IMG/VR virus record: IMGVR_UViG_3300023180_000283
Location: 1 to 29,632 of that record
DNA length: 29,632 bases
DNA from: a virus
Reading direction: 5' to 3' (one strand)
The notes under the pieces are model-generated. The model saw nothing but the letters and a program-made list of their open reading frames with translations. It had not been told where the DNA came from and did no database searches. Shown piece after piece: positions 2,868 through 27,528 of this stretch (positions within the stretch are counted from its first letter, which is position 1; every line of letters starts with the position of its first letter). The position numbers and the translations under genes are program-made.

Positions 2868-3479
2868 ATGAAGAGTGATTTTTATATAGATAGAGTTAGT
2901 AAAGAAGAAGTAAAAGATCTCCTTTACACTCATCACTATCTAAAAGATGAGTCCAAAGATTTCAAATCTGGGTATAATTATGGACTTTTCAGGCATACTG
3001 AGTGGGAATGCCCTCTTAGGATTGGCAGGTGTCTTGCTGTTTGTATTTTTACTGGGCTCCCAGTTCCAGAAATTGCCGTAGGTGCATTTGGTTTACAACG
3101 TGATGAACAAGAGGGTTTATTTGAACTCTCTCGTCTATGCGTAGATCCAGAAGTGCAGAAAGAAGAATATAATATTACCTCGTGGTTTGTGAGTAAATGT
3201 ATTAAGAGGTTTAGAAGAGATGCCCCAGTTCGTGCTATTCTTAGTTATGCTGACGCTAGTCACCACACTGGAACCATATACAGAGCTTGTAATTTCAAGT
3301 ACTATGGGTTAACTGACCCTAAAAAAGATTTCTATTACGCAGATGGAACCAAACATTCTAGAGGTAGTGTCAGCGGCATTGACGGTGAGTGGAGGGATCG
3401 CTCTCGTAAACATCGCTATCTTATGGTTTTTCAAAAGGAGTTAAAGGAAAGACTTGCCTGGGAAGAAGTAAAGTGGTAA
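2868..3479 (+). CDS. Mom-like DNA modification protein (GNAT-related fold)
   Basis: Phage Mu Mom modifies adenine in phage DNA (acetamido/carbamoylmethyl type) to resist restriction and is related to the GNAT acyltransferase fold. This 203-residue protein has the features I associate with Mom-like proteins: a core strand AVCIFTGLPVPEIAVGAFG (57-75), the conserved block FELSRLCVDPE (86-96), an amphipathic helix WFVSKCIKRFRRDAP (106-120), and ILSYADASHHTGTIYRACNF (124-143), where S-Y-A-D and the following H/G/Y residues are the most diagnostic. The C-terminus carries the basic, aromatic segment DRSRKHRYLMVF. It lies 10 nt after the oxygenase gene and 55 nt before a terminator. An ordinary GNAT acyltransferase is the main alternative. 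Confidence 0.75.
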   Translation: MKSDFYIDRVSKEEVKDLLYTHHYLKDESKDFKSGYNYGLFRHTEWECPLRIGRCLAVCIFTGLPVPEIAVGAFGLQRDEQEGLFELSRLCVDPEVQKEEYNITSWFVSKCIKRFRRDAPVRAILSYADASHHTGTIYRACNFKYYGLTDPKKDFYYADGTKHSRGSVSGIDGEWRDRSRKHRYLMVFQKELKERLAWEEVKW

Positions 3480-3534
3480 TATAATAACTGGTGATACTAA
3501 AAACCACAGACAAATCCCTTCCGTGTGAACTTCT

Positions 3535-3560
3535 AAACCTCCCCATTCGGGAGGTTTTTT
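3535..3560 (+). terminator. Rho-independent terminator after the Mom-like gene
   Basis: A 9-bp perfect stem, AAACCTCCC (3535-3543) with GGGAGGTTT (3549-3557), has a 5-nt loop (CATTC) and runs into six T residues. It separates the modification region from the fibre transcription unit. Confidence 0.92.
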
Positions 3561-3564
3561 AGTG

Positions 3565-3572
3565 TCTAAATA
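3565..3572 (+). promoter_or_regulatory. Late-type promoter of the tail-fibre gene
   Basis: TCTAAATA matches the T4 late consensus TATAAATA at 7 of 8 positions. It lies just after the terminator and 34 nt before the fibre ATG. A Shine-Dalgarno TAGGA (3595-3599) follows at correct spacing. The position and the structural nature of the gene make late expression likely. Confidence 0.65.
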
Positions 3573-3606
3573 TAAAAAGAATAGATTTGTCACGTAGGAC
3601 AGCAAA

Positions 3607-6600
3607 ATGCCCCTAAGTAGATTAGAGAATTTCCTAAAGAATGCAGAAGGTAATATTCTTTACGTAAATCCCTCAGATTTTGATGCGACTGATAGCATTG
3701 AAAATAGAGGTAATTCGTTAACGAGACCTTTCAAAACTATCCAAAGAGCAATACTTGAGTCAGCAAGATTCTCATACTTGGTTGGAAAGAATAATGATAA
3801 AATCGATAACACAACTATATTAGTTTATCCTGGTGTCCATTATATTGATAATAGACCTGGACACTCTATTACTAATCAGGGAAATACCGCAGAATTTAAA
3901 CGCTTTGTTGATGGATCTTGGACAACTGTTGGCGCACAACTAACAGAATTTACAGAGAATTCTAATTTTGATATCTTTGATGAAGATAACGATTTAAGAA
4001 AATATAACTCAGTATACGGTGGTGTAATATTACCTAGAGGTACTTCTCTTGTTGGTTTGGATCTTAGAAAGACTAAGATTCGTCCAATGTATGTACCTGA
4101 TCCACTCAATGATGATATAGATCCTACTTCTGTCTTTAGAGTAACTGGTACATGTTACTTCACTGCATTTAGTATATTTGACGCAGACCTACTTAAAGCT
4201 GCATATAAAGATTCAACAGAAAGAAAAGTAGTTCCAAACTTTTCACACCATAAACTAACAGTATTTGAATATGCTGATGGTGTTAATAAGGTAAAATTAG
4301 ATGCAGAACAAACAGATCTAACTGATCTGGATATGTACTACTACAAAGTAACCCATGCTTATGGGGATACTTCTGGAAGAGGATTGCCTAGTTTCCCAAT
4401 CAATAATGATTCAGACTTTGAGCCATCTATTGATGAATACAGAATCGTTGGAGATTTGCGTCCAGATCCCATTGGAATTACCAGTATTAAGGCTGGTGAC
4501 GGTGTAATTCCGACTCAAACAGTAACTGTAACCACTTTAACTCCACACGGATTGTTTAAGGATACTCCTGTGTTTGTTAGTGGTATTACAACAAGCATTA
4601 ATGAATATAACGGATCTTTCTTAGTTCAAGATATTCTTAGTGATAATGAATTTACTTATATTTCACCAAATACACCTGTTGAAGCTTTACCAACTCCTGT
4701 TCAAATATTAAATGCATCCGCAAACGTAGAGTCTGATAGTGTTTCTTCAGCATCACCATATGTATTCTCATGTTCATTGAGATCTGTATATGGTATGAAC
4801 GGCATGTTTGCCGATGGTTCTAAGGCAACTGGATTTAAGTCAATGTTGACTGCCCAGTTCACTGGTATTTCTCTACAAAAAGACGATAATGCCTTTATTT
4901 TATATGACAAAACAACTGGAATCTATGATGATAATTTAACTGTTAATGATTCTGAAAAACCACTTCATACCAATTCCAAGTCAGTATATAAACCAGACTG
5001 GGAAAACGTACACATTAAAGCAACAAATAACTCCATTATTCAGTGTGTTTCTGTTTTTGCGATCGGTTATGCTAGACATTTCGTTGCAGAAACTGGTGGT
5101 GACATGTCAATCACCAACTCTAACTCTAACTTCGGTGCAGTATCACTAGAATCTGTTGGATTTAGACCAGAATCTTTTGACAGAGATGATGTCGGTTATA
5201 TTACTCATGTTATTCCACCAAGAGAATTAGTAAACAGAGAAAGTAACGTAAGTTGGCTATCTTTAGATGTAAACAAGATCATTTCTGTTGCTACCACCGA
5301 AAGACTTTATATCTCAGGATATACAAGTCTAGACGTTCCACCACCATCACAGGTTGATTCTTATAGAGTTGGTGCTAGGGATCAAGAACACTTAAATCTT
5401 TCAGTTATTATTGGTGCTCAACAAAACAGCTACAAAGCACCAATTCTTATGCAGACTCCAAGTGGCATAGGAACTTCAGCGAAAAAAGTATCACAAGTTG
5501 GAAGAACTGTAGGTATTAACAGTATTACTTCAAATATCTTCACTCTAACAGCTGATCATAATTTCTTCAATGGAGAAAAAGTAAGAATTGAAAGTGATAA
5601 TGGAAATTTCCCAGAAAATTTATCAAACGAAAAAATATATTATGCATATACAACAGGTTTGGCTGCAAATGAAATTAAACTATCTTCCACATTAAATGAT
5701 GCAAATTCTGGAAATACAATCAGTGGTATTTCCAATGAGGGTGGAATAATAAAAGTTATCAGTTATGTTTCCGACAAACTTCCTGGAGAAGTTGGTCATC
5801 CTATTCAATATGATACTTCTGTAAATAACTGGTATATTCAGAGTAGTGATGATGAATCAAAGAACACCATTTATTCTGGTATTGTATCTATTGGGGCTGC
5901 TTTATTAGGAAATCAAACTGGATCAACCTTTATTACTAGAAGAATTGATAATAGAGGATTAGATGATAGAATCTACAAATTCCGTTATGTTATTCCAAAA
6001 GAATTTGTAAATGCTCGTCCACCAACAGATGGATTTGTTATCCAAGAAACCAAATCTGTAGGAATTTCTAGTGCATCAATATTATCATTCCCATTAACTG
6101 ATACAACGGAACTAAGAAATCCAAAAGTAATTACAAGAGCAGTTTATGCAGCTGGTTCAGTATTTTATGACACAGAACTCCCACACCATTTAGTAGTAGG
6201 TGACACTGTAAAAATATCAAATATTCAGAGTGTCAATCAATCAAACTTTGAATATAATGGATCTTTCGTTATTTCTGAAGTAGTAACACCAAGACAATTT
6301 GGCGTTTATAATTTTGCTGGAGATCCTGGTTTATTCTTAAGCCAAGTAAACCAAAGAACAACTCAACAACAGATTGAAGCTCTACCAACGGTACAAAAAG
6401 AAAAATCGAAAGATAGTTTATACATCTATAGATCACAAGAGGTAAAACCACTAATTCCTGGAGCTGGCGGTCAGGATGGAATTTACACTATCACTGTTCT
6501 CTCAGGTAGTGTAAAACCAGACTCATCAATCGGATTTGGATTAAGTGATAGAAACTTTAATCAAGATGTAAGAAATCTTTATCCACAAATTGATAGGGAT

Positions 6601-9600
6601 AATTACGACTCAGATCCACTACCAACCATAAGTTATGCTGAACTATCTCCTAGTGGTCTAGTCAACACTAACGACAAACGTCATTCACTCACTAAAGAAG
6701 CTCTAGACGTTTATTTTGAAAATAATAGAGTAGGTCTTGCAGTCACTGGAGCATTTGTAAGTGGAACTGGAAATACCACACTTACACTATACACTGATAC
6801 ATTCCACAATCTAAACTCCATCAAGTCCGTATCAATAACAGTAGATGGTGCTGGATATAATAATTCTGCTGGAGTTACAAGTACAATCTATTCTGCTGAG
6901 TTAATTAATAATTCTATTGATGGTAAAAATGCTTCGGGAAGAGTAGTTGTTTCTGCTGCTAATACTGTTCAGTCCATTCAAATAATTGACCCTGGTTCTG
7001 CATATGGTATAGGCAATACTATGGAAGTTTCTGCTCTTCCAGCAGGAAATCCCACATCATTTGCAGTAGTTACTGTTAATGAAATTAACAATAATGTAGG
7101 AGATACTATTGATCTGAGTGGATTTGCAGATCCAGTAATGAATGGAACATTTAAGATCACAAATATTCCTTCTGCAAATCAAATTGCTCTAGAGATTGAA
7201 GGTGGACTACCATCAACTGAATTTTTAGAAAGAAATGATGAAAGAACACCTATTGCATATATTGGATCCAAAGGAGTTCAAGTAGTAAACATTGATGTTA
7301 CTGAGGAACTCGGTATATCAACAGTAACTACCGCAAGTGCTCACGGTATGTTACCTGGAAACAGTTTTGTACTAACTGGAACTGGAAGTACATACTTCTC
7401 TGGTAAGTTCTTGGTTGATGAAAATGTTGGACTAACTACATTTGCATTCTTCTCTGGAATTAGTACATTTACTGAGACATATAGCTCATCTGGTGTTCAG
7501 GTACAGAAGTCATCTATTGCTGCTAATGGAAGAGCTTTAGGATCTGGAGAAGAAAACTTAGGTGGAAGAGGAACATATTTGTATGCTGGTTTTACTACAT
7601 CATTGTCATCTGCAATATCTTCAACCGATACGACTATTACATTAACAAGTGCTGATGGATTTAGAAAAGGTGATTATGTTGAAATTAATTCCGAAATACT
7701 TCGTCTTTCTACAGAGTCAACTTTAGATTCGTTTGATGTATTAAGGGGTCAATTCTCTACTGTTGCCTCAGCTAACGCATCTGGAACATTAGTAAGAAAG
7801 ATTAGAGTTCTTCCTGTAGAGATTCGTCGTCCATCTATTCTTCGTGCATCTGGACATACATTTGAATATCTAGGATTTGGTCCTGGTAACTATTCAACTG
7901 GATTGCCAGTAAAACAAGATAGAATCCTAAGTGATAAAGAAATCTTAGTTGCACAGGCTAGAGAACAGGATGGAGGAACTGTCGTCTACACTGGTATGAA
8001 TGACAAGGGTGAATTTTACTCTGGTGCAACTAGAATCAATGCACAAACAGGTGAAGAAGAGACTATTGAAGCACCTATTGTTTCCTTCTTTGGTGATGAT
8101 CTATTAGCTGGTGCAGATAAAAGGAACAGTGGAACATTTGACGACTTGGTTGTTAAAGAAAGAATCACTGTTGAGGGTGGAGAAAATAACAATCAAACAT
8201 CCCAATTCTATGGTCCAACTAACTTCTCCCAGAAAGTAACTGTTTCCGCTGATGATGGTTTAGAAACTAGAGATCTTTACATTAAAGGTGTTGCTTCTCA
8301 ACCAAAACTATTGACAGTTGGTATTGCCACTCCAACAGATGCTAAGAAAACTGGTGATATTTCGTTCCTGGCTAACCCCGATCCCGGACGTTTCATAGGA
8401 CATGTTTATGCTGATGGTGATTGGCGTCGTTGGGGAATGATTTCCAACGATAAAAATAGAAACTATCTAAAACTTGATCAAATTGCTGTAGGACAAAGCC
8501 AGGGAATTTACAATTTTAGTGATGCTGTAGAAGTAAATGGTACAGTCAAAGTTAAGAACCTTTATGTTGGTGGTGCTGTTACATTCGCTGGTTCTCAGGC
8601 AATCGGTAGTGCAGCATTCGATACGTTAGATGTTAATAAGACTCTAACATATAAAGGTATTGGAACAAACTATACCGTAATTAGTGAAAATGCTAATGCG
8701 ATTGCACAATTCCAGAACGTAGAAGTTACTGGATATGCAGTTACCATTACCAACCCAACAATAACGATTGAAAATTCGTTCAATTCCACATACACAGGCG
8801 TATCTACAATCGCTGGAATCTTAGATGTTGGTAACTTAAGAACACCTCCCGCTGGTATTATCACTTCTGCAAACTTAGAAGTGACTGACGATGCAAACTT
8901 TAATAACATTTCGGTATCAGGACAAGCTTACATAACCTCAGGGATTATGACTGCAATTCTCACCGAATATATCGGTGGAACTGGAGGTGTTGGGGTCGGT
9001 GAAACTGTTGCAACTGCTTGTTTTAATGTTGGAGTCGTAACATCAATCACTGGTACTGCGTGTACTATTACTACAATAAATGGTACTAATGCCTTCATTG
9101 GTGGAATTAGAGCTACATCAGCACTTTCAACTCCTTTAGCTGCAGTTAATACTGGTATTATTACCAACTTCAAGAGCACAACTGGAGACATTGTAAATCT
9201 ATTCTCTAATGTTGGTATTGTAACTACTCTTGATGCAAGTAATTGGGTTGGTGCTGAAACTCTCTATGCAAATACAGGATTTACAACAACTATTCTAAAT
9301 TCTGGTTGGGTAGGAAGTAATCAAATTTATGCTAACAGTGGCATTATTACCACATTAAATGGTGGTGGAACTCCCGGAACTCAAGGAACTATAAGATACC
9401 TTGATGGTCAATTTGGTGGAAGTTTGTCACTGACAGGTTCATCAACTGGTGATGGTGTTTATTCCAACATTGGTATTATTACGCAACTTGGTAATGCTTC
9501 AACACTTCAATTTATTCATTGTGGTGATGGCGGAGGAGGAAATCCTGCGGGTGTTGTAACTGCTGCTAGATTTGTTTCTGCAATTCCTACAGGTACTGCA

Positions 9601-10143
9601 CCAATTAGTGTTGCATCTTCTACTACTGTAAACAATCTAAACAGTCAATTTGTTGGTACATTTAGTCATCTAAGACTTGTAAAACTATCTAATGATGAAT
9701 GGAATACTTCTGATGATGGTCAGAACAGAATTCAATTCGCAGCCTCTGCAAGAACTTTATTTGATGCACCACAGACAACAGGTGGTTATGAATTTAGAAT
9801 CAACAATAATGCTCTGGTAGTTATTGATAACACTGGTGCTATTACTGTTACATCTGACGAAAGACTGAAAGAAAATATCACTACCATTGAAGGAGGTTTA
9901 GATAAAGTCTCAAATCTTCGTGGTGTTGAATATGATCTCAAGGCAACTGGAACTCATCACTTAGGCGTAATTGCACAAGAAGTTGAACAAGTTTTACCCG
10001 AACTTGTAAGTACAAATGATGACGGAATTAAGTCAGTTGCTTATCAAAACTTGACCGCTGTTCTTATTGAAGCAGTTAAAGAATTGAAAGGCGAAATATC
10101 CGAACTTCGTGCAGAATTAGATCAACTAAAGGGTAATAAATAA
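3607..10143 (+). CDS. Giant tail-fibre/adhesin protein with self-cleaving S74 chaperone (2178 aa)
   Basis: The N-terminus (MPLSRLENFLKNAEGNIL, then GNSLTRPFKTIQRA at about residues 36-49) resembles virion fibre proteins of T4-like cyanophages whose opening part looks beta-helical. The long middle holds at least five spaced copies of a His-Gly/Asn turn followed by a short strand pair (H314, H651, H860/861, H1067, H1246), as in repeated beta modules. Residues 1848-1960 contain about 20-residue repeats of the type Y-x-N-x-G-I-(I/V)-T-T-L (starting near 1848, 1867, 1887, 1908, 1952), typical of trimeric fibre shafts. The last 96 residues are an intramolecular chaperone/peptidase S74 domain: ITVTSDERLKENI with candidate catalytic Ser2083, then HHLGVIAQEVEQVLPEL and a terminal coiled coil. 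Self-cleavage before Ser2083 after trimerisation is expected from the family. Receptor binding is inferred. Confidence 0.9.
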   Translation: MPLSRLENFLKNAEGNILYVNPSDFDATDSIENRGNSLTRPFKTIQRAILESARFSYLVGKNNDKIDNTTILVYPGVHYIDNRPGHSITNQGNTAEFKRFVDGSWTTVGAQLTEFTENSNFDIFDEDNDLRKYNSVYGGVILPRGTSLVGLDLRKTKIRPMYVPDPLNDDIDPTSVFRVTGTCYFTAFSIFDADLLKAAYKDSTERKVVPNFSHHKLTVFEYADGVNKVKLDAEQTDLTDLDMYYYKVTHAYGDTSGRGLPSFPINNDSDFEPSIDEYRIVGDLRPDPIGITSIKAGDGVIPTQTVTVTTLTPHGLFKDTPVFVSGITTSINEYNGSFLVQDILSDNEFTYISPNTPVEALPTPVQILNASANVESDSVSSASPYVFSCSLRSVYGMNGMFADGSKATGFKSMLTAQFTGISLQKDDNAFILYDKTTGIYDDNLTVNDSEKPLHTNSKSVYKPDWENVHIKATNNSIIQCVSVFAIGYARHFVAETGGDMSITNSNSNFGAVSLESVGFRPESFDRDDVGYITHVIPPRELVNRESNVSWLSLDVNKIISVATTERLYISGYTSLDVPPPSQVDSYRVGARDQEHLNLSVIIGAQQNSYKAPILMQTPSGIGTSAKKVSQVGRTVGINSITSNIFTLTADHNFFNGEKVRIESDNGNFPENLSNEKIYYAYTTGLAANEIKLSSTLNDANSGNTISGISNEGGIIKVISYVSDKLPGEVGHPIQYDTSVNNWYIQSSDDESKNTIYSGIVSIGAALLGNQTGSTFITRRIDNRGLDDRIYKFRYVIPKEFVNARPPTDGFVIQETKSVGISSASILSFPLTDTTELRNPKVITRAVYAAGSVFYDTELPHHLVVGDTVKISNIQSVNQSNFEYNGSFVISEVVTPRQFGVYNFAGDPGLFLSQVNQRTTQQQIEALPTVQKEKSKDSLYIYRSQEVKPLIPGAGGQDGIYTITVLSGSVKPDSSIGFGLSDRNFNQDVRNLYPQIDRDNYDSDPLPTISYAELSPSGLVNTNDKRHSLTKEALDVYFENNRVGLAVTGAFVSGTGNTTLTLYTDTFHNLNSIKSVSITVDGAGYNNSAGVTSTIYSAELINNSIDGKNASGRVVVSAANTVQSIQIIDPGSAYGIGNTMEVSALPAGNPTSFAVVTVNEINNNVGDTIDLSGFADPVMNGTFKITNIPSANQIALEIEGGLPSTEFLERNDERTPIAYIGSKGVQVVNIDVTEELGISTVTTASAHGMLPGNSFVLTGTGSTYFSGKFLVDENVGLTTFAFFSGISTFTETYSSSGVQVQKSSIAANGRALGSGEENLGGRGTYLYAGFTTSLSSAISSTDTTITLTSADGFRKGDYVEINSEILRLSTESTLDSFDVLRGQFSTVASANASGTLVRKIRVLPVEIRRPSILRASGHTFEYLGFGPGNYSTGLPVKQDRILSDKEILVAQAREQDGGTVVYTGMNDKGEFYSGATRINAQTGEEETIEAPIVSFFGDDLLAGADKRNSGTFDDLVVKERITVEGGENNNQTSQFYGPTNFSQKVTVSADDGLETRDLYIKGVASQPKLLTVGIATPTDAKKTGDISFLANPDPGRFIGHVYADGDWRRWGMISNDKNRNYLKLDQIAVGQSQGIYNFSDAVEVNGTVKVKNLYVGGAVTFAGSQAIGSAAFDTLDVNKTLTYKGIGTNYTVISENANAIAQFQNVEVTGYAVTITNPTITIENSFNSTYTGVSTIAGILDVGNLRTPPAGIITSANLEVTDDANFNNISVSGQAYITSGIMTAILTEYIGGTGGVGVGETVATACFNVGVVTSITGTACTITTINGTNAFIGGIRATSALSTPLAAVNTGIITNFKSTTGDIVNLFSNVGIVTTLDASNWVGAETLYANTGFTTTILNSGWVGSNQIYANSGIITTLNGGGTPGTQGTIRYLDGQFGGSLSLTGSSTGDGVYSNIGIITQLGNASTLQFIHCGDGGGGNPAGVVTAARFVSAIPTGTAPISVASSTTVNNLNSQFVGTFSHLRLVKLSNDEWNTSDDGQNRIQFAASARTLFDAPQTTGGYEFRINNNALVVIDNTGAITVTSDERLKENITTIEGGLDKVSNLRGVEYDLKATGTHHLGVIAQEVEQVLPELVSTNDDGIKSVAYQNLTAVLIEAVKELKGEISELRAELDQLKGNK

Positions 10144-11095: not shown

Positions 11096-11485
11096 ATGAA
11101 AAACGCAATTATCGCTGGTCTTTTGTTTGGTATGGCTCATGGAATGACTGTACCTGTTCAAGCTCAACAGGTAAATGAGTTTGAAACATGTACTAGACAT
11201 CGTGAAGTTTATACTCCAGGCCACTATGATGGTAATGGAAACTATATCAGAGGTAGATTAACTACTAATTCATATAAAGTTCCTTGTAGTGGTGATGTTG
11301 TTAATTACGTTCCAAATACAAGACCAGAACCTACTAGACGTAGACCCCAATGTGATCCAGCTCATACAACTTTAGGAGCACTTTTAGGTGGTGGAGTTGG
11401 TGCAGCACTTTCTAGGGGTGATGGACGTTATTGGGCTATTCCCGTAGGTGCTGCTGTTGGTGGTGGAATGTTTGGATGTACATAG
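11096..11485 (+). CDS. Secreted/periplasmic glycine-zipper protein (129 aa)
   Basis: A cleavable signal peptide is visible: MKNAIIAGLLFGMAHGMTVP, then V-Q-A with likely cleavage after A23. The mature part has four Cys residues and a Pro/Arg linker (NTRPEPTRRRPQCDP). The C-terminal 39 residues are Gly/Ala-rich (LGALLGGGVGAALS, then IPVGAAVGGGMFGC), a glycine-zipper pair of the type seen in small outer-membrane or membrane-perturbing proteins. It probably acts in the host envelope, possibly in lysis, superinfection exclusion or virion-associated envelope contact. ATG at 11096 is chosen over the adjacent TTG. The last 10 nt overlap the next gene. Confidence 0.75.
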   Translation: MKNAIIAGLLFGMAHGMTVPVQAQQVNEFETCTRHREVYTPGHYDGNGNYIRGRLTTNSYKVPCSGDVVNYVPNTRPEPTRRRPQCDPAHTTLGALLGGGVGAALSRGDGRYWAIPVGAAVGGGMFGCT

Positions 11486-12261
11486 GAATATATGGTGATA
11501 GTTTTGCTGTCAACTATTCTGGTTGGCCCAGATATTTGGAAAAGTATTTCGATAATGCAAAAATAAAGATATTTGCTGTTGGTGGGACCAGTACAAATTA
11601 TTCGTATATGAAATTTTTAGAAACACATCATAAACATGATGTTGTTATCTTCATATGGTCATCAGATAAAAGAAATACTTTAATAACAAAAGATTTTGAC
11701 AAAAATAGATATAAAGTTCATGCAACTGCTAACACAAGTCATGAATTCAATTTTCGTGATAAACATGAACTACTCTCTCAATTAAAAATAGAACAAGAAG
11801 ATATTCCGGAGTTTGATATAAAGAATGTAGATGTAACTTGGACATCTCACGAACTTTATAGTATTAAAAAACATCCAACAAAAAATATTTTACATGAAAT
11901 TGCGATGAGGGATAGTGTAATTCTAAAACGCCCAGATTCTATAAACATAGAGGCATTTTCTTGTAGAGAATTTGAATCTTACGGTATGTCTAACATACCA
12001 TTTACTGATTTGTGTCAACTACTGGTTAAATTGAATGTTAATATAAAATTTGAGGAAACTAATTATAGAGATGATTGTCAATTAAGACCCAATCATTTAA
12101 CACCAAAACAGAACGAACAATTTGCAAATTATCTTTATCAACATATGACAAAAAAAGATTTTGATATTCATAGAACATTTTCAGATCCTAGAAAATATTA
12201 TATGATGTCAGAGACTCTTGAAGAATCTGGATTTCATTTAGAGAATTTCGAAAAATTATGA
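11476..12261 (+). CDS. SGNH-hydrolase-like protein (261 aa)
   Basis: The start MYIGIYGDSFAVNYSGW carries SGNH block I, with Gly7-Asp8-Ser9 as candidate nucleophile region after a short strand. A second strand ends in VGGTSTNYS (about 35-43, block II-like Gly). VVIFIWSSDKRN (56-67) occupies the block III position. RPNHLTPKQNEQFANYL (204-220) resembles the block V catalytic His (H207), although the usual Asp three residues before it is Arg204. Family members are esterases or acetylhydrolases acting on glycans and lipids. Here envelope polysaccharide deacetylation is a guess. The ATG at 11476 lies inside the upstream gene, in-frame with a longer TTG frame that encodes an implausible Cys/Trp run. 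Confidence 0.65.
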   Translation: MYIGIYGDSFAVNYSGWPRYLEKYFDNAKIKIFAVGGTSTNYSYMKFLETHHKHDVVIFIWSSDKRNTLITKDFDKNRYKVHATANTSHEFNFRDKHELLSQLKIEQEDIPEFDIKNVDVTWTSHELYSIKKHPTKNILHEIAMRDSVILKRPDSINIEAFSCREFESYGMSNIPFTDLCQLLVKLNVNIKFEETNYRDDCQLRPNHLTPKQNEQFANYLYQHMTKKDFDIHRTFSDPRKYYMMSETLEESGFHLENFEKL

Positions 12262-16776: not shown

Positions 16777-17814
16777 ATGAAAACAAAACCCTTACAAAAT
16801 TATGATTCAAGTGTTGGGCTTGAAGTGTATGATATTGATTGGAAATGTGAAGAAGAATTGCTGGAACTTGGAAGACTATGTTCCTCTCAGTGCATTGTAT
16901 ATCTAAATGAAGATATTTCTGTTAATGATCTATTTGACACAATGAGTTTGTGGGGTGAGCCTAGTAGGGCTTTCACTCATGAGTATATTTGCGATAAGAA
17001 ACTTACAGGTAGACATTGGAGAGAAATCCTTACTAATCTCGGTTACATTAGTAATGCAGCTGGTGACTATTTGAGTAAGGCAGTCGCTTACGTTAGTTAC
17101 AAACAAGAAGAAAAAGGTCGCCCCGCAGGTATGTTTCAAAACGGGGAATTGAATTGGCATTGCGATCAATGTGCCTTTGAAGATGGTCAACGAGTCATCG
17201 GACTTAAAAGTGTCAGTGATACTGAAAACAGCCAAACTCAGTTTCTTTGTACTCATGATGCCTATGAATCTTTAAGTTCTGAGATGAAAAGTCTTGTAAA
17301 AGAATTGGTCGTAAAACATAAATGGATTGACAACGAAATGGCGCCAATTCTAAACGACGTTCAGGCTAATCTTTTACGTTACAATATGGTTCCTCTTGAC
17401 GGAATGGAAACGTCTCTGTATAGTGAGACTGCATCTGGTCTCCCAGGAATGAAGATTCCAAGCTGTTCCTTTGATGGTTTCGTCGGAATGACTAGAGAGG
17501 AAAGTGATAAGGTATTAAATGAACTTAAAAATGTTGTTTTTAAGGACAAATACGTTTATACACAAAACTGGCAAGATGGTCAAGTTGTATTCATGGATCA
17601 AGAAATTACCATGCACAAGAGACCAACAAACATTGAGTCGGGTAATAAGAGAACCATGGCTAGATCTATCTTCTATGTGAATAAACTCTATGACAGTCTA
17701 AAGTCTCAAAAATCAACAAAAGTAAGATACAATGGATCATTCTATGATACTGAAGATTTTGTAAAATTTGTAGATGAGGATCGTAAAAAACGATTTTCAC
17801 TGTCACGAACCTGA
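16777..17814 (+). CDS. TauD/TfdA-like 2-oxoglutarate dioxygenase (345 aa)
   Basis: The metal-binding facial triad is visible: H128-x-D130 in LNWHCDQCAFEDG, and the distal H280 in VFMDQEITMHKRP. The 2OG-anchoring Arg is R292 or R296 in NKRTMARSIFYV. The N-terminal strand GLEVYDIDW, the helix around 24-36 and the TQNWQDGQVVFMD jelly-roll strand fit the TauD/gamma-butyrobetaine hydroxylase group. These enzymes hydroxylate small molecules. The substrate is unknown, but an auxiliary metabolic role in the host (sulfonate, amino-acid or cofactor chemistry) or nucleotide/protein modification is possible. It has no overlap with neighbours, and GGTAAATA at its 5' side is a weak late-type octamer. Confidence 0.8.
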   Translation: MKTKPLQNYDSSVGLEVYDIDWKCEEELLELGRLCSSQCIVYLNEDISVNDLFDTMSLWGEPSRAFTHEYICDKKLTGRHWREILTNLGYISNAAGDYLSKAVAYVSYKQEEKGRPAGMFQNGELNWHCDQCAFEDGQRVIGLKSVSDTENSQTQFLCTHDAYESLSSEMKSLVKELVVKHKWIDNEMAPILNDVQANLLRYNMVPLDGMETSLYSETASGLPGMKIPSCSFDGFVGMTREESDKVLNELKNVVFKDKYVYTQNWQDGQVVFMDQEITMHKRPTNIESGNKRTMARSIFYVNKLYDSLKSQKSTKVRYNGSFYDTEDFVKFVDEDRKKRFSLSRT

Positions 17815-26008: not shown

Positions 26009-26127
26009 TGGCCCAATCGGCCAGCTGCACACCGATCTCGCCAAAGGGGCTTGTTAGCCCCTATATTGGCCACATGAGGGGGAGGGAACGACCCCGACCC
26101 ACTCAAAACCTTTTCTCTTCTCAAACC
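26009..26127 (+). promoter_or_regulatory. Promoter cassette 8 (repeat family) with hairpin spacer
   Basis: The stem TGGCC (26009-26013)/GGCCA (26019-26023) precedes GCTGCACACC. The promoter is TCGCCA (26038-26043), an 18-nt spacer, and TATATT (26062-26067). The spacer contains the perfect hairpin AGGGGCT-tgtt-AGCCCCT, flanked by GCCAA/TTGGC. The leader GGCCACATG is followed by an unusually long purine-rich 5' region before the ATG at 26128. Confidence 0.75.
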
Positions 26128-27126: not shown

Positions 27127-27189
27127 GGACAGTCTTCTGGCTGTCCACTATTTCCGCCAAACGGGTCCGTTAGCCCCTATATTGGCCAC
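27127..27189 (+). promoter_or_regulatory. Promoter cassette 9 (repeat family)
   Basis: The perfect stem GGACAG (27127-27132)/CTGTCC (27141-27146) has an 8-nt loop. The promoter is CCGCCA (27154-27159), an 18-nt spacer, and TATATT (27178-27183), then GGCCACATGG. The spacer carries AACGG-GT-CCGTT, and GCCAA/TTGGC flank it as in cassette 8. Confidence 0.8.
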
Positions 27190-27528
27190 ATGGAAAACAA
27201 AGCAACTCAAATGTCTCTCTTCTCTCAAGGTTGGAAAGCAGAACAATACTGGGGCAGCGAGTTGACTGCTACTCACATGCGTTCAGCTTCTGTCTATCGT
27301 TTCATCGAGAATAACGACATCTCGATTAAGCACACTGCCGTTCGTAAGGATAGCGAATGGGTTGATCAGTTTGTTGTTTATCATCGCACTGTCACTGCTT
27401 ATCACGAGAGTGGAAATGTTCTCTCTACTGAGAACAATCCTGTCGAGACTTTTGATAACTGGTTGGATGCATATTACTGTGGTGTGGTATGTGTCAACAA
27501 CCTGAACATGGATCTCATCGCTAACTGA
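27190..27528 (+). CDS. Hypothetical protein (112 aa)
   Basis: MENKATQMSLFSQGWKAEQY continues as an alpha/beta protein (SVYRFIENNDISIKHTAVRK, then DQFVVYHRTVTAYHESGNVL and DNWLDAYYCGVVCVNN). As at 23132, the ATG falls on the predicted transcription start and the first eight codons belong to the conserved leader, so translation may instead begin at the in-frame ATG 27211. Function unknown. Confidence 0.7.
   Translation: MENKATQMSLFSQGWKAEQYWGSELTATHMRSASVYRFIENNDISIKHTAVRKDSEWVDQFVVYHRTVTAYHESGNVLSTENNPVETFDNWLDAYYCGVVCVNNLNMDLIAN

Follow-up and report, generated by a model that had tools for sequence, protein, structure and literature searches.

A Mom-family DNA-modification gene carried as optional cargo beside the tail-fibre gene of a T4-like cyanophage

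Introduction

Mom of phage Mu places a bulky group on DNA adenines, by which the phage evades bacterial restriction, and most of what is known of Mom-type adenine modification comes from this phage. The enzyme is described as transferring an acyl group from acyl-CoA to N6 of adenine (PMC7824862). Among the chemistries listed for GNAT enzymes are an iron radical-mediated mechanism and, with reference to Karambelkar 2020, the transfer of methylcarbamoyl (PMC8072286), and the donor, chemistry and mechanism are debated for Mu Mom itself (PMC7824862, PMC8072286).

Here we analyse a related gene in the window, by which we mean the whole stretch of DNA studied, 29,632 nucleotides of the IMG/VR virus record IMGVR_UViG_3300023180_000283. 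Homology to Mu Mom makes it highly probable that the gene encodes a Mom enzyme of a T4-like cyanophage, which would modify N6 of adenine in the phage DNA and block host restriction.

Results and Discussion

Identification of a Mom-family protein

A reading made from the sequence alone (the sequence-only reading) had proposed a Mom-like gene at the following position.

2868-3479, + strand: Mom-family DNA-modification gene, 203 aa, ATG start, with PF25680, phrog_1384 and 8bv8 fold matches

This proposal was borne out by two family profiles, by the invariant residues and by the top fold match. Using hmmscan against Pfam, the ORF matched PF25680 'Mom protein family' with an E-value of 1.3e-21 and a score of 77.6 bits, compared with a curated cut-off of 27.1, and the match spans residues 4-199, i.e. 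the full length. A profile search gave phrog_1384 'Mom-like DNA modification protein' at E = 2.9e-29, and the sole match of the family profile among solved sequences was 8bv8, 'Methylcarbamoylase mom' (6e-59). When phage records were searched by tblastn with the window Mom, 144 records were found at E<=1e-5, the top match being Roseobacter phage CRP-212 (51% identity), followed by Mom-annotated genes of Bacillus, Listeria, Corynebacterium, Vibrio and Enterococcus phages. PADLOC gave no result. Two blocks on which the sequence-only reading had relied, SRLCVDPE (residues 88-95, nt 3129-3152) and SYADASHHTGTIYRACNF (residues 126-143, nt 3243-3296), are indeed present and coincide with the alignment columns that are best conserved among Mom proteins. 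ORF 2868-3479 encodes a full-length, intact Mom-family protein.

Predicted structure and Mom-specific residues

An AlphaFold2 model of the window Mom, computed with 26 sequences, had a pLDDT of 89.7 and a pTM of 0.85. In a Foldseek search of the PDB with this model the Mu Mom crystal structure 8bv8 came first (E = 2.4e-10, TM 0.70), and the next entries were ordinary GNATs (E = 5.8e-6, TM about 0.5), so that the E-value of 8bv8 was better than that of every ordinary GNAT by more than four orders of magnitude. Resemblance to ordinary GNATs combined with absence of a Mom-specific site had been set beforehand as the outcome that speaks against Mom; the comparison favoured Mom instead, with 8bv8 as the best match and the residues present. 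The predicted fold is thus the GNAT variant specific to Mom, and it resembles 8bv8 more closely than other GNATs.

Residues were compared in an alignment of the window Mom, Mu Mom, the CRP-212 and S-SSM7 proteins, seven more phage Moms and three close relatives from viral contigs. The invariant columns (n = 14) are H23, Y24, E86, L87, R89, S126, A128, D129, G135, Y138, A140, N142, G147 and H163. All Mom-specific elements, i.e. HY, ELxR, the essential serine, SYAD and YxAxN, were found in the window Mom. The corresponding codons are as follows.

2934-2939, + strand: codons of H23-Y24, two residues that do not vary in the Mom alignment, the Y being lost in Hef Mom-fold domains
3123-3134, + strand: codons of E86-L-S-R89 (ELxR motif), with E, L and R invariant
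3180-3182, + strand: codon of S105, equivalent to S124 of Mu Mom by the 8bv8 profile, fold and residue matches
3243-3296, + strand: SYADASHHTGTIYRACNF block, residues 126-143, the family-signature core in the Mom alignment and in 139 relatives

S105 is nearly invariant in the alignment and pairs with Mu S124 in the numbering of the 241-aa annotation. Since the PDB title of 8bv8 describes an 'inactive mutant S124A' of Mu Mom, the essential serine is conserved in the window Mom. It is a serine in 139/139 distinct relatives; the other key Mom residues showed no variation in these relatives where covered, and none of the 139 had an internal stop within the match.

These residues also bear on the idea that the ORF encodes a Mom-fold DNA-binding domain devoid of modification activity, as in Hef, which is carried in a mobile element. 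Two Hef homing-endonuclease Mom-fold domains examined as a control lack equivalents of S105, Y24, H133 and N142, whereas the window Mom has all four. The ORF moreover stands alone with no fused nuclease domain, and the Mom residues are invariant across the 139 relatives. Against this, weak matches to the endonuclease families phrog_559 and phrog_3339 were obtained over residues 70-165, the viral-structure matches of the window Mom include such endonucleases, and mom is an optional insert, as described below. On balance we regard a Hef-like binding domain as extremely improbable.

Relatives and selection

Relatives of the window Mom are encoded by at least 589 viral-contig stretches, and this branch of the family is common in environmental cyanophages. 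Only three MAG matches were found in the genome contigs searched, and therefore no clear cellular reservoir is seen for it. Comparison of mom with ten relatives gave dN/dS values of 0.06-0.18, with some dS values saturated, which indicates that the gene is under purifying selection. As a separate observation, contig G007 (locus L188) has two PF25680 genes, at 65600-66193 and 137108-137704, the second with a TGA within the match.

Phage context and insertion site

The sequence-only reading had assigned the DNA to a cyanophage, and the neighbouring genes agree with this. The UvsW-helicase and tail-fibre neighbours match Synechococcus/Prochlorococcus phages almost exclusively, for a third mom neighbour such phages account for 456 of 469 matching records, and another ORF of the window matches Pfam Kyano_Gp96. 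Judged by these matches, the window is a fragment of a T4-like, Kyanoviridae-type cyanophage. The following features surround mom.

2054-2127, + strand: tRNA-Thr (tgt) found by ARAGORN, bordering the insertion site on the left; flank kept in S-SCSM2R
2149-2316, + strand: small ORF of 55 aa read from the sequence, bordering the optional insert on the left
3538-3560, + strand: terminator-like hairpin CCTCCCCATTCGGGAGG followed by T6, 3' of mom, read from the sequence, inside the right flank 3473-3620
3607-10143, + strand: large tail-fibre gene, right neighbour, with cyanophage tail-fibre matches and a C-terminal Peptidase_S74 chaperone

The closest isolate, S-SCSM2R, retains the window flanks 2053-2289 (71% identical) and 3473-3620 (80% identical), and has about 68 bp in place of mom and the ORF at 2309-2857 that precedes it. 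As both flanks are there and the insert is missing, these two genes are optional cargo, lodged between the tRNA-Thr/small-ORF block and the tail-fibre gene. Among the nearest 80 mom loci, 75 show a large tail-fibre homologue downstream, in most cases as the gene that follows mom; conversely, mom is found upstream of the fibre in 20/80 nearest fibre loci.

A second mom clade (66-70% identity) is located after a gp32-like gene and faces baseplate-like genes, the neighbours being identified by eye, and a second insertion site for mom exists. In S-SSM7 a divergent mom adjoins psbA and four tRNA genes. These positions matter for the suggestion that the protein is a GNAT acting on a protein, a tRNA or a metabolite, for example on the tail fibre or tRNA encoded nearby. 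The fold is that of a GNAT, and mom often adjoins the tail-fibre gene and lies near tRNA genes; however, structure and residues match Mom specifically, and since the second clade sits away from the fibre, adjacency to it is not required. The idea that mom modifies the tail fibre or a tRNA on account of its position next to them was set aside in view of this different location, and we consider another substrate in general very unlikely.

Several other features of the region were observed. A CpeT/CpcT phycobiliprotein-lyase-family gene lies between tRNA genes at 1542-2039 of the window (PF06206, E = 2.8e-22), with homologues at several related fibre loci. Window ORF 11431-12261 had no Pfam match, and two tandem homologues of it occur upstream of mom in a relative (L005:2170-3644). 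A 53-nt direct repeat at 26024-26076 and 27140-27192 (79% identity, the GTTAGCCCCTATATTGGCCACATG end being the same in both copies) may represent a leader or regulatory element common to the two small genes that it precedes.

The upstream open reading frame

The gene preceding mom had been called 2OG oxygenase-like in the sequence-only reading, from which a two-step base modification pathway was proposed.

2309-2857, + strand: upstream ORF, 182 aa, possible 2OG-Fe(II) oxygenase, with an H85xD87...H140...R149 motif invariant in 4 homologues

The ORF proved to be real, and so did its linkage to mom. A single-sequence scan of viral contigs with this ORF detected no relatives, while an alignment-based scan detected four contigs with mom adjoining in every one; each homologue found immediately precedes mom, and the short junction between the two is conserved. 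The dN/dS of the ORF is about 0.09-0.17. The assignment to a family did not hold. Searches of Pfam, phrog and other family libraries gave no 2OG family match, no relative was found among solved sequences, and the profile of the ORF showed no similarity to cyanophage PF13640 (2OG oxygenase) proteins. A low-confidence model (pLDDT 49) gave no significant fold match and no jelly-roll match. The spacing of H85xD87, H140 and R149 would suit a 2OG-Fe(II) oxygenase, but the four homologues in which the motif is invariant are all close relatives, and a motif of this type arises in 4.2% of shuffles of the ORF. Identity as a 2OG-Fe(II) oxygenase is possible but unproven.

In a two-step scheme such an oxygenase would oxidise the base or the Mom-added group, or would prepare the donor, and so give a new hypermodified adenine. 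The constant junction with mom, the plausibly spaced invariant motif and the dN/dS speak for this scheme, whereas the lack of detectable 2OG homology or a jelly-roll match, the frequency of the motif in shuffled sequences and the presence of a homologue in only 3/80 nearest mom loci speak against it. The pathway is possible, with no support beyond gene adjacency; we treat it as unsupported and attach a very low probability to it. It would be just as surprising if Mom followed by the HxD...H...R protein produced an oxidised, previously unknown adenine hypermodification in a subset of cyanophages. Because most relatives have no such upstream ORF, the window Mom most likely works by itself, as Mu Mom does.

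The window does contain a gene of the 2OG superfamily, of the TauD/TfdA dioxygenase family, at 16777-17814 (PF02668, E = 1.5e-15). It was rejected as a partner of Mom because it does not belong to the mom insert and is separated from mom by 13 kb.

Proposed function and significance

By analogy with Mu, the window Mom would add a small acyl-derived group at N6 of adenines in the phage DNA; in Mu this group is methylcarbamoyl, also called carbamoylmethyl. Host restriction endonucleases would then no longer cut the modified DNA. The chemistry, target motif, timing and anti-restriction role we infer from the Mu system, and the bulky modification that the sequence-only reading had envisaged on this phage's adenines is expected from homology only.

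The literature searched, with incomplete coverage, contains no joint mention of Mom-like proteins and cyanophages, and the relative in the cultured cyanophage S-SSM7 is annotated 'hypothetical protein'; this branch of a known enzyme family therefore appears to be new and undescribed in cyanophages. If the enzyme is active, anti-restriction hypermodification of adenine may be common among viruses of picocyanobacteria, and in S-SSM7 a related mom gene is directly testable in a cultured phage.

Comparison with known systems

Mu Mom (8bv8; PF25680/phrog_1384) shares with the window Mom the fold, a full-length alignment, HY, ELxR, the essential Ser, SYAD/SFAD and YxAxN. The identity is only about 21%, so the added group and the target could differ. 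Compared with Mu Mom, the window protein has an extended loop in the region of residues 45-56 and 2-3 extra residues inserted ahead of N102. Its gene adjoins a tail fibre in a lytic-type phage, unlike Mu mom, and no gene for a Com regulator as in Mu was seen by eye.

The closest isolate relative is the Mom-MazG protein of roseophage CRP-212 (L082:4995-5927), with 51-55% identity and the same residues, which unlike the window Mom has a C-terminal MazG domain (PF03819, 4.1e-9) and a different gene neighbourhood. In CRP-212 the full Mom domain and the MazG domain (nucleotide pyrophosphohydrolase) are encoded in a single open frame, whose Mom part is hidden in the public annotation by a late gene start. 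SSSM7_282 of the cultured Synechococcus phage S-SSM7 (Kyanoviridae) shares the Mom residues at 26% identity, and its site by psbA and the tRNA cluster is away from the fibre site.

The C-terminal Mom-fold domains of Hef-type homing endonucleases have the fold region, E-L-x-R and S-x-x-D in common with the window Mom, but they are fused to an endonuclease and have neither the essential Ser nor the Y of HY nor the N of AxN. A cyanophage protein that also hypermodifies DNA is CmoX, from Synechococcus phage S-B43, but it acts at cytosine C5 with carboxy-SAM and is an enzyme unrelated to Mom (PMC12783734).
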